Shown in pieces: positions 25,091-26,751 of a DNA stretch of 64,000 nt. This DNA comes from Streptacidiphilus albus JL83 (lineage in GTDB: Bacteria; Actinomycetota; Actinomycetes; Streptomycetales; Streptomycetaceae): positions 9,496,017-9,560,016 of the forward strand of contig NZ_JQML01000001.1 in the NCBI RefSeq assembly GCF_000744705.1, read 5' to 3'. The stretch's first letter is position 1, and every line of letters starts with the position of its first letter. The notes below the pieces were generated by a model that saw only the letters and a list, made by a program, of their open reading frames with translations, was not told where the DNA came from and did not search any database. The position numbers and the translations under genes are program-made.

Positions 25091-25120
25091 TTGCGCGGAC
25101 GATTCGGCCTCGTCTAACGT
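25091..25120 (+). promoter_or_regulatory. Likely promoter of the T-box/aspS transcript
   Basis: TTGCGC at 25091-25096 and TAACGT at 25115-25120 are separated by 18 bp and resemble -35/-10 boxes for the housekeeping sigma factor. This would place the transcript start near 25127, just where the structured leader begins. Confidence 0.5.
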
Positions 25121-25126
25121 CGGCGC

Positions 25127-25380
25127 CAACGCTACGAGGGAGACGAGTAGCCCCGGGGAACGGGTGGGACGAGAGAGCCGCCGGCAGCTGTGAAGGCGGC
25201 CCACACACCCGGGACGAAGACACTCCTGAGCGCGGGGAGGAAATGCCCCGCCGGCCTGCCCCCGTCACCGGGCCGAACGAGGCCGCCACCCCCGGTGGCG
25301 GCGAAAGTGCGGTGGCACCGCGAGTCGCCCTTCTCGCCCGCACTTCCAAGGGATCAGCCGAGGTCCGCAGGAGGACTGAG
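25127..25380 (+). promoter_or_regulatory. T-box riboswitch leader, probably aspartate-specific
   Basis: The T-box core GGTGGCACCGCG is at 25311-25322. It sits in a textbook antiterminator/antisequestrator: GTGCGG (25307-25312) pairs with CCGCAC (25338-25343), the 7-nt TGGCACC bulge follows, and GCGAG (25320-25324) pairs with CTCGC (25333-25337). Upstream, stem I can be built from CGGGTG (25161-25166) with CACCCG (25206-25211) and GCCGCC (25177-25182) with GGCGGC (25195-25200), with a GACGAGTA motif at 25142-25149. GAC at 25219-25221 followed by A is the best specifier triplet, matching tRNA-Asp. There is no U-run, and the AGGAGG site at 25369-25374 lies in a possible GTCC/GGAC hairpin. Control is therefore probably translational, as in other actinobacterial T-boxes. 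Confidence 0.8.
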
Positions 25381-26751
25381 ATGATCCGCACGACAGAGCA
25401 CACCGTGACGCGGCCCACCGCGACACCGCGCACCCTGGTCCACGACCTGCGCGCACACCTGGGCGGGACGGTCTCCGTCTCGGGCTGGGTGAACACCCTC
25501 CGCCTCCAGCGCGCCATGCAGTTCGTGCTGGTGCGCGACCACACCGGCACGGTCCAGGTCGCCCACCGCCGGGCCGGCGCCGGCCCGGACGACGCGCGGG
25601 CCGCAGCGCTGGCCGAGCTCATCGACGGGCTCACGCCCGAGTCGGCGGTCCGGATCACCGGCCGGGTCGTCGAGAACCCCGTCGTCAAGCTCGGCGGCCT
25701 GGAGATCGTCCCGACGCGGGTCGAGGTGCTCAACCGGGCGGAGACGCCGCTGCCGATCGACCAGCAGACCGGGCTCGAACACCGCCTGGACTGGCGCTTC
25801 CTGGACGTGCGGGCCCGCCCGGCGGCCCAGCTGCTGTTCGCGGTGCAGACCACCGTCGAGCGGGCCATGCGGGCGTTCGCCCAGGCCGAGGGCTGCACCG
25901 AGATGCACACCCCGAAGCTGATGGGCACCGCCTCCGAGTCCGGCGCGGAGGTCTTCGAGCTCGGCTACTTCGGCCGCAGCGCGTACCTTGCCCAGTCGCC
26001 GCAGTTCTACAAGCAGATGGCGATCGCGGCCGGCATCGACCGGGTGTTCGAGGTCGGCCCGGTGTTCCGGGCCGAGCCCTCGTTCACCTCCCGGCACGCC
26101 ACCGAGTTCACCGGCGTCGACGTCGAACTGGCCTGGATCGACGGGGTCGAGGACGTGATGGACTTCGAGGAGCGGATGCTCGCCCACGCCCTGGCCGAGG
26201 TGGCGGCGGTCCACGGCGCGGCGATCCGTGAGCAGTTCGGCATCGAGGTCACCGTGCCGCAACTGCCGTTCCCCCGCATCACCATGGCCGAGGCCCAGGA
26301 ACTGCTGCGGGCGGAGGGCTGGGACCCGGAGGGGCTGAAGGAGGACCTCGACCCGGACGGGGAGCGCCGACTGGCCGCGCACATCCGTGAGCGCAGCGGT
26401 CACGAGTTCGTCTTCGTCACCCACTACCCGTCCGGCATCCGGCCGTTCTACCACATGCGGCCGGAGGGGCAGGACGGGCTGACGCTCAGCTTCGACCTGC
26501 TGTGGAAGGGGCTGGAGATCACCACCGGCGCCCAGCGCGAGCACCGCTACGAGGTGCTGCTCCGCCAGGCGGCGGAGAAGGGCGTGGGCACCGAGTCGCT
26601 CCGCGACTACCTCAACTGCTTCCGCTTCGGCTGCCCGCCGCACGGCGGCCTGGGGATGGGGCTCGGCCGGGTGCTGATGGTGCTGCTGGGACTGGAGTCG
26701 ATCCGCGAGGCGACCTTCCTCTTCCGCGGCCCGAACCGGCTCACCCCCTAG
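25381..26751 (+). CDS. aspS: Aspartyl-tRNA synthetase, archaeal/non-discriminating type
   Basis: A 456-residue class IIb synthetase. The N-terminal OB-fold anticodon-binding domain is SVSGWVNTLRLQRAMQFVLVRDHTG. The class II catalytic core follows, with motif 2 (VFEVGPVFRAEPSFTSRHATEFTGVDVELAW) and motif 3 (PPHGGLGMGLGRVLMVLLGL), ending in RGPNRLTP. It lacks the long insertion of the standard bacterial AspRS (about 590 residues) and matches the short archaeal-type enzyme, which often charges both tRNA-Asp and tRNA-Asn. GCAGGAGG precedes the ATG. It is probably a second AspRS beside the housekeeping one, induced through the T-box when charged tRNA is scarce or the main enzyme is inhibited. Confidence 0.9.
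   Translation: MIRTTEHTVTRPTATPRTLVHDLRAHLGGTVSVSGWVNTLRLQRAMQFVLVRDHTGTVQVAHRRAGAGPDDARAAALAELIDGLTPESAVRITGRVVENPVVKLGGLEIVPTRVEVLNRAETPLPIDQQTGLEHRLDWRFLDVRARPAAQLLFAVQTTVERAMRAFAQAEGCTEMHTPKLMGTASESGAEVFELGYFGRSAYLAQSPQFYKQMAIAAGIDRVFEVGPVFRAEPSFTSRHATEFTGVDVELAWIDGVEDVMDFEERMLAHALAEVAAVHGAAIREQFGIEVTVPQLPFPRITMAEAQELLRAEGWDPEGLKEDLDPDGERRLAAHIRERSGHEFVFVTHYPSGIRPFYHMRPEGQDGLTLSFDLLWKGLEITTGAQREHRYEVLLRQAAEKGVGTESLRDYLNCFRFGCPPHGGLGMGLGRVLMVLLGLESIREATFLFRGPNRLTP

Follow-up and report, generated by a model that had tools for sequence, protein, structure and literature searches.

The 2005 survey of actinobacteria, which included S. avermitilis and S. coelicolor, found T-boxes only on ileS, of the translational type, and no classical T-boxes, and attenuators were reported for trpS in some Streptomyces (PMC1262725; this paper and those below are cited from excerpts). 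Elsewhere, 32 T-boxes were listed in 12 of the 19 genomes assigned to Actinobacteria, at least 18 of them from Symbiobacterium (PMC2494555). Translational T-boxes mostly have an intermediate or ultrashort Stem I and a few have a long one (PMC7583486); in TBDB, class I entries are extended and trimmed to the poly-U and class II entries have a truncated Stem I (PMC7778990). In C. acetobutylicum, a T-box precedes one of three aspS genes (PMC2494555), a Firmicute system tied to tRNA-dependent amidation (Saad 2012, 2013 as cited in PMC4206432), and a second aspartyl-tRNA synthetase (AspRS) is called rare in bacteria (PMC4206432). In Streptomyces, SerRS2 (albomycin) and TrpRS1 (indolmycin) are divergent second synthetases, for which PMC9437257 does not mention T-box control, the term T-box being absent from it. 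The open-licence literature holds no report of a T-box with a Streptomyces seryl-tRNA synthetase (SerRS) and, judged by title or abstract start, nothing on T-box riboswitches and Streptomyces that concerns the leader family presented here.

This family was found through the leader located upstream of aspS2 in Streptacidiphilus albus JL83, in a window (the whole stretch of DNA analysed) of 64,000 nt. The leader is a genuine T-box. It shares with class I T-boxes of RF00230 a Stem I with AGUA/GAA and AGAGAG/GCUG..GAA motifs, Stem II, Stem IIA/B, Stem III and the UGGN bulge, but differs from them by the lack of a U-run, by a GAA-to-specifier distance that is one nucleotide shorter, by the base after the specifier (C in most leaders of the family, A in the window) and by an extra CCCUN/NAGGG helix. 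As in the translational ileS T-boxes of actinobacteria (PMC1262725), of which the same genome carries one (L008), a hairpin sequestering the Shine-Dalgarno sequence (SD) replaces the terminator, whereas the gene, the specifier and the sequestrator are different. Like class II leaders, it sequesters the SD without a terminator, a likeness at the sequence level, but we did not file it as class II because its Stem I is long and not truncated. The family falls between TBDB class I and class II, and TBDB may hold members of it. As in C. acetobutylicum the T-box sits on an additional AspRS gene, here however a lone aspS2 in an actinomycete; like SerRS2 and TrpRS1, its product is a divergent second synthetase.

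Architecture and covariation of the leader

The elements of the leader and its gene are as follows (all on the + strand).

25091-25120, +: putative promoter-like elements read from the sequence, -35 TTGCGC (25091-25096) and -10 TAACGT (25115-25120), with an 18-nt spacer
25131-25231, +: Stem I (Rfam alignment; covariation of helices 1-4)
25139-25142 and 25223-25226, +: base helix of Stem I, GGAG/CUCC
25146-25149, 25172-25177 and 25216-25218, +: AGUA, AGAGAG and GAA of Stem I
25178-25182 and 25195-25199, +: distal helix of Stem I, CCGCC/GGCGG
25219-25221, +: specifier GAC (Asp; anticodon GUC)
25232-25251, +: Stem II, GCGGGG/CCCCGC (Rfam alignment; covariation of helix 5)
25252-25274, +: Stem IIA/B region with CCGUCA, which we take to be F-box-like (Rfam alignment; covariation of helix 6)
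25282-25302, +: Stem III (Rfam alignment; covariation of helix 7)
25305-25345, +: antisequestrator, comprising A1, T-box bulge, A2 and apical loop (Rfam alignment; helix 8 covaries, helix 9 is near-invariant)
25305-25312/25338-25345, 25313-25319 and 25320-25324/25333-25337, +: A1, bulge UGGCACC and A2, respectively
25328-25352, +: loop-tail helix CCCUU (25328-25332)/AAGGG (25348-25352), from 98 unique tails
25351-25387, +: sequestrator GGAUCA (25351-25356)/UGAUCC (25382-25387) enclosing GUCC (25363-25366)/GGAC (25373-25376)
25370-25374 and 25381-25383, +: SD GGAGG and AUG, both inside the sequestrator
25381-26751, +: aspS2, encoding a 456-aa archaeal-type AspRS (NCBIfam aspartate--tRNA(Asn) ligase; family models, structure match)

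The T-box element thus extends to about 25387, the end of the SD/AUG hairpin, and a TATCCT-like -10 is found at the same position in many relatives. The 7-nt UGGNACC bulge of T-box leaders is present within 25305-25345, and the long Stem I carries AGAGAG and the GCUG..GAA distal elbow-binding motif. The first-pass annotation had already proposed a T-box here, with the core, the 7-nt bulge and both flanking helices that we read as A1, UGGCACC and A2, a foldable Stem I, in which the AGUA/GAA, AGAGAG and GCUGUGAA motifs are indeed present, and GAC as specifier; all these parts stand, and the T-box claim itself is borne out by the end-to-end RF00230 alignment, the covariation and the specifier-gene match.

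In a permissive search, RF00230 aligned over its entire length (1-219 of 219) to 25125-25344 with 56.7 bits, corresponding to an E-value of 4.0e-11 for the whole 9.9-Mb genome. At the Rfam gathering score of 93 the leader had no match, so that the Rfam search suggested as a check by the first-pass annotation gave a full-length alignment below the threshold rather than a match above it; the high GC content (bias of 26 bits at this alignment) may account for the low score. At E up to 10, RF00230 found three places in the genome, all below the cut-off: this leader, 4436667 (4.4e-14) and 2077919 (1.4e-8). Since such a loose search also gives matches in 10 of 14 control genomes, archaea included, only very low E-values are meaningful.

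The covariation analysis, likewise suggested beforehand, was positive. It was carried out on 64 leaders, i.e. 73 dereplicated ones minus nine unaligned (L050, L058, L150, L168, L183, L184, L190, L191 and L192). In these, 97.0% of 3277 cells were paired and 26 of the 53 pairs were changed on both sides; the covariation score was 0.190 versus 0.105 for shuffled alignments, none of 500 shuffles reached the observed value on any of five measures and sliding the partners by 1-3 columns lowered pairing to 44-48%, although these shuffle and slid-column controls favour the structure because it was derived from a single row among the 64 and these are mutually related, and related rows may outscore shuffles even without structure. 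Nine of the ten helices showed at least one double-changed pair. A2 (helix 9) is near-invariant and informative neither for nor against, and helix 2, in Stem I, had only 77.6% of its cells paired. The score under the gathering cut-off and the 26-bit bias might suggest that a GC-rich leader looks like a T-box by chance. We consider this almost inconceivable: the core recurs at 45 of 80 related loci (best 80 of 280), its reversed pattern occurs 0 times in 394 genomes, and chance resemblance is ruled out by this reversed-pattern control, the covariation in 64 leaders and the match between specifier and gene.

Specifier codon and synthetase gene

Specifiers were counted over 107 places (96 unique leaders), excluding eight without recognised 5' part (L066, L075, L076, L090, L103, L169, L171 and L185). 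GAC is associated with AspRS in 87 of the 96 unique leaders and UCC with SerRS in 8, these being all the AspRS and SerRS leaders counted (87/87 and 8/8), and the last one (L168) has GAC with no gene found behind. There is no exception to the agreement between specifier and gene among the 96 unique leaders; the associated Fisher value of 8e-12 ignores kinship and overstates independence because the leaders are related. Judging from the sequence, the leader most likely senses uncharged tRNA-Asp. A long-Stem-I family on reserve aspS2 and serS2 genes provides a testable rule, by which the synthetase can be predicted from the specifier codon.

The reading frame of the specifier is fixed by the paralogous serS2 leader, which has UCC at the same position. 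The spacing from GAA to the specifier is one base shorter than in the Rfam consensus and in the ileS leader of the same genome; counted from the helix side, the specifier stands in its usual place, and this counting yields for both Asp and Ser leaders the amino acid of their gene. A Thr specifier (ACA), which results if a single base is allowed between GAA and the codon as in the ileS leader, was rejected because the same frame gives CCC (Pro) in the serS2 leader, and an Asn specifier was also discarded, AAC being absent at the specifier position. The base 3' of the specifier is mostly C (65 of the 96 leaders); 30 leaders, including that of the window, have A and 1 has G.

In the window, the bulge base N is C, which by eye can pair with G73 of the tRNA-Asp(GUC) of the same genome, the one tRNA-Asp(GUC) among the 30 tRNA places fetched out of 83. 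Of the 87 AspRS leaders, 60 have C as this base, 22 have U and 5 have A, and the SerRS leaders have C in 8/8 cases; the five AspRS leaders with UGGA, for which no pairing with G73 is possible, are a misfit. Besides, a dense tRNA array lies at 6687554-6688164 of this genome (His, Trp, Gln, Asn and Met among those read), and its tRNA-Asn is unlike the two other tRNA-Asn seen.

The best RF00230 match of the genome, at 4436667 (L006), is a T-box with specifier UCC before a second SerRS (TIGR00414, 392.6 bits) that shares 39% identity with the genome's other SerRS; the genome therefore carries one GAC/AspRS leader and one UCC/SerRS leader. An APH-like gene lies upstream at this place (Pfam APH below cut-off). 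The T-box at 2077919 (L008) stands, by eye, before an IleRS-like reading frame; its specifier is AUC, separated from GAA by one base.

AspRS2 scored 455.2 bits with PRK05159 (cut-off 353) and 369.7 bits with TIGR00458, only marginally above the cut-off of 368.4; its closest solved structures are 3nel and 1b8a, both of which we take to be from Thermococcus kodakarensis. The genome contains a separate bacterial AspRS above cut-off as well as GatB, and no AsnRS above cut-off was found in it. It follows that aspS2 is a second copy, of archaeal type according to the family models, as the first-pass annotation had supposed, and that Asn-tRNA is probably made by transamidation in this organism. We take H and P, at the positions of W26 and K85 in T. 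kodakarensis, as the marks of a non-discriminating AspRS; AspRS2 has N and K at these positions (alignment with the solved structures, manual count), so that neither signature is complete. One could imagine a role of AspRS2 in tRNA-dependent asparagine formation, like the one put forward for the second, archaeal-type AspRS of Thermus (PMC4206432); the NCBIfam name of AspRS2 and the presence of GatB and no AsnRS above cut-off would agree with it. However, this is quite unlikely, given a specifier for Asp, not Asn, in 87/87 unique AspRS leaders and two specificity residues that differ from the presumed non-discriminating pair. At 8814500-8819500 of the same genome (L198), an AspRS/AsnA-like protein lies between two proteins that, by eye, are glutamate-mutase-like and glutamate-synthase-like.

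Expression platform and predicted switching

Reading of the sequence between 25345 and 25387 gave no U-run, and both the SD and the AUG are enclosed in a hairpin, which makes translational control probable. The element labelled antiterminator by the first-pass annotation thus keeps its structure and loses its terminator role: as no U-run terminator follows, antisequestrator is the better name. Transcription attenuation would agree with the long Stem I and its elbow-binding motif, which are features of transcriptional T-boxes (PMC7583486), but it is very unlikely in view of the absent U-run at 25345-25387 and of the conserved hairpin around SD and AUG.

In this SD/AUG hairpin, 93.7% of 632 cells are paired, with 19 double-changed cells of which 18 fall at one pair; by the number of double-changed pairs, 178 of 500 shuffles do equally well. 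One inner pair is UA in 34 leaders and CG in 17, and no pair of the outer GGAUCA/UGAUCC helix is changed on both sides. The serS2 leader has this hairpin ahead of its first AUG, and its SD is indistinct by eye.

The conserved CCCUN/NAGGG helix pairs the antisequestrator loop to the 5' arm of the sequestrator, and shares G's with the sequestrator helix. Among 98 unique tails, it reads CCCUU/AAGGG in 95, CCCUG/CAGGG in 2 and CCCUC/GAGGG in 1. The minimum-energy structures printed for AspRS leaders by nearest-neighbour folding contain the antisequestrator together with the SD/AUG hairpin. Forcing the antisequestrator raises SD openness from 0.47 to 0.51 (up in 69 of 73) and lowers AUG openness from 0.23 to 0.18. 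When the loop-tail helix is imposed as a nested hairpin, the unpaired AUG fraction rises from 0.24 to 0.32; such a nested hairpin replacing the antisequestrator was rejected, lying 9.8 kcal/mol above the free ensemble (mean, 82 tails). According to these models, CCCUU/AAGGG is probably a pseudoknot or a kinetic state. It could be a pseudoknot of the tRNA-bound state that draws the 5' arm off the start codon, the opposite assignment being possible too, and it is sterically doubtful because the connector is short (2 nt in the window); folding, as modelled, does not discriminate between ways of flipping the switch.

The T-box architecture, the specifier-gene match, the hairpin enclosing SD and AUG and the second-copy status of the AspRS are, as a whole, very probably explained by a T-box that senses tRNA-Asp charging and switches on the reserve AspRS when this tRNA is uncharged. 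Uncharged tRNA-Asp would bind the leader through the specifier GAC (25219-25221), and the UGGC bulge would read its free 3' end. When tRNA-Asp is uncharged, for example with the housekeeping AspRS blocked or aspartate exhausted, the antisequestrator would be stabilised and the ribosome binding site and AUG of the reserve AspRS would become accessible, control thus acting on translation; with charged tRNA-Asp, the reserve AspRS would be kept low. A switch in this direction would let the cell benefit from the reserve enzyme when it is needed.

Distribution, neighbourhood and possible purpose of the reserve synthetases

The leader family is mostly found in Streptomyces and stands before genes of two divergent AspRS clades and before that of a second SerRS. 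Relatives were taken as the best 80 of 280 related stretches from one scan of genome contigs, and 45 of these 80 loci have the core G[GC]UGGNACCGCG at most 500 nt upstream, which answers positively the question, raised by the first-pass annotation, of the same leader before related aspS2 genes. These 45 loci belong to Streptomyces (37) and, for the rest, to Kitasatospora, Wenjunlia, Trebonia, Spongiactinospora and two MAGs. The other 35 of these best 80 of 280 loci, a few of which have little upstream sequence (225 bases for L114), showed neither the core pattern nor a match above 20 bits to R1, a covariance model of the 3' domain; R1 gave among them only L087 (minus strand, E 0.04) and L100 (E 0.9), and its test run recovered L103 (90 bits), L090 (79) and the ileS leader L008 (21.8). 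In 394 genomes of the window's family, a stricter core pattern occurs at 62 places, spread over 52 genomes, and its reversal at 0. In the window's genus, 7 of 14 genomes have the core, and a looser pattern is present in 8 of 394 genomes of the class. At the level of the phylum, R1 exceeded 75 bits in 2 of 296 genomes, own genome included, in a sample with few members of the window's family, and reached 26-38 bits in 20 more.

On the AspRS tree (FastTree, with its warning on joined long branches), T-boxes are found on two clades with a long branch between them. In one of these clades, 68/68 rows have the T-box, and its nearest outgroups, L078 and then 19 rows from Kitasatospora, Streptomyces, Actinocorallia and Streptacidiphilus, are devoid of it. 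In the other clade the T-box pattern is present in 20 of 21 rows, a proportion biased because the clade was collected through this pattern, and the 21st (L200) was found by R1. On a leader tree, leaders from the two AspRS clades are mixed with each other and with those of SerRS, the resolution of this tree being too poor to tell the gene of the first leader; taken together, these data indicate one leader type on at least three distinct genes. L168 and L185 are T-box cores with no synthetase gene found behind, possibly orphaned remnants.

In the window, aspS2 is flanked by a TPR-protein gene and an alpha/beta-hydrolase gene with no evident link. Elsewhere, a cupin-like gene and two radical-SAM genes, convergent behind aspS2, adjoin it at 19 of 45 T-box loci and 0 of 35 loci without T-box (best 80 of 280), a comparison that is no clean test because several loci are short there and the 19 are partly close relatives. 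The cupin-like gene matches Pfam Cupin_8 below cut-off, and comparison of its protein with solved structures gave nothing useful; the radical-SAM genes are above the Pfam cut-off, with no NCBIfam model above its own, and some copies are partial. The set is possibly a small biosynthetic cluster, whose surroundings differ in the three places read further. At four loci (L045, L046, L047 and L108), the T-box aspS2 is preceded on the same strand, at a distance of about 2.85 kb, by a T-box core with serS2; these serS2 were assigned to SerRS by clustering, their specifier being outside the fetched stretch.

Charging-controlled reserve synthetases are the best reading of these data, and two proposals can be made for their purpose. 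In the first, an AspRS inhibitor, own or a competitor's, would leave tRNA-Asp uncharged and thereby turn on an insensitive AspRS. Duplicated enzymes that resist inhibitors include, in one list, SerRS2, TrpRS1 and IleRS2 (PMC9437257), microcin C causes accumulation of uncharged tRNA-Asp (PMC7136475) and the same leader family is found on SerRS2. The cupin-like/radical-SAM set, the serS2-aspS2 pairs at four loci and the spare SerRS, TrpRS and IleRS listed as resistance genes favour, without proving, a reserve enzyme used under inhibition. On the other side, the inhibitor, the insensitivity and the product are all without known example here, the window has no such set beside aspS2 and the 19 loci are partly close relatives; inhibitor resistance of AspRS2 is plausible, although we would give it somewhat less than an even chance. 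In the second, the T-box is mainly a sensor of aspartate starvation and AspRS2 a high-affinity or high-demand enzyme, antibiotics being uninvolved. This would suit the neighbours in the window and the response of T-boxes elsewhere to starvation (PMC10482949), but both long-Stem-I leaders of the genome are on spare synthetases (Asp and Ser), 19 of 45 T-box loci (best 80 of 280) adjoin the cupin-like/radical-SAM set and spare SerRS enzymes can be resistance genes (PMC9437257), which makes it possible if rather doubtful.

Should the charging-controlled reserve enzymes be inhibitor-resistant, the leader would be a genome-mining beacon for natural products that target synthetases and a ready reporter of tRNA-Asp and tRNA-Ser charging for Streptomyces. 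A broader proposal holds jointly that the T-box is a mobile, specifier-swapping cassette of actinomycetes that brings reserve synthetases for different amino acids under charging control, that it confers inducible resistance to synthetase inhibitors, that the CCCUN/NAGGG pseudoknot couples tRNA binding to the start codon and that it marks hidden clusters for making AspRS inhibitors, such as the cupin-like gene with two radical-SAM genes next to aspS2; as a whole, this is unlikely. Finally, the cupin-like/radical-SAM set was seen at L048 (4389-7310), at 18 other loci (best 80 of 280), at L193 and, accompanied by an additional 119-aa protein without Pfam match, at L194 and L195.
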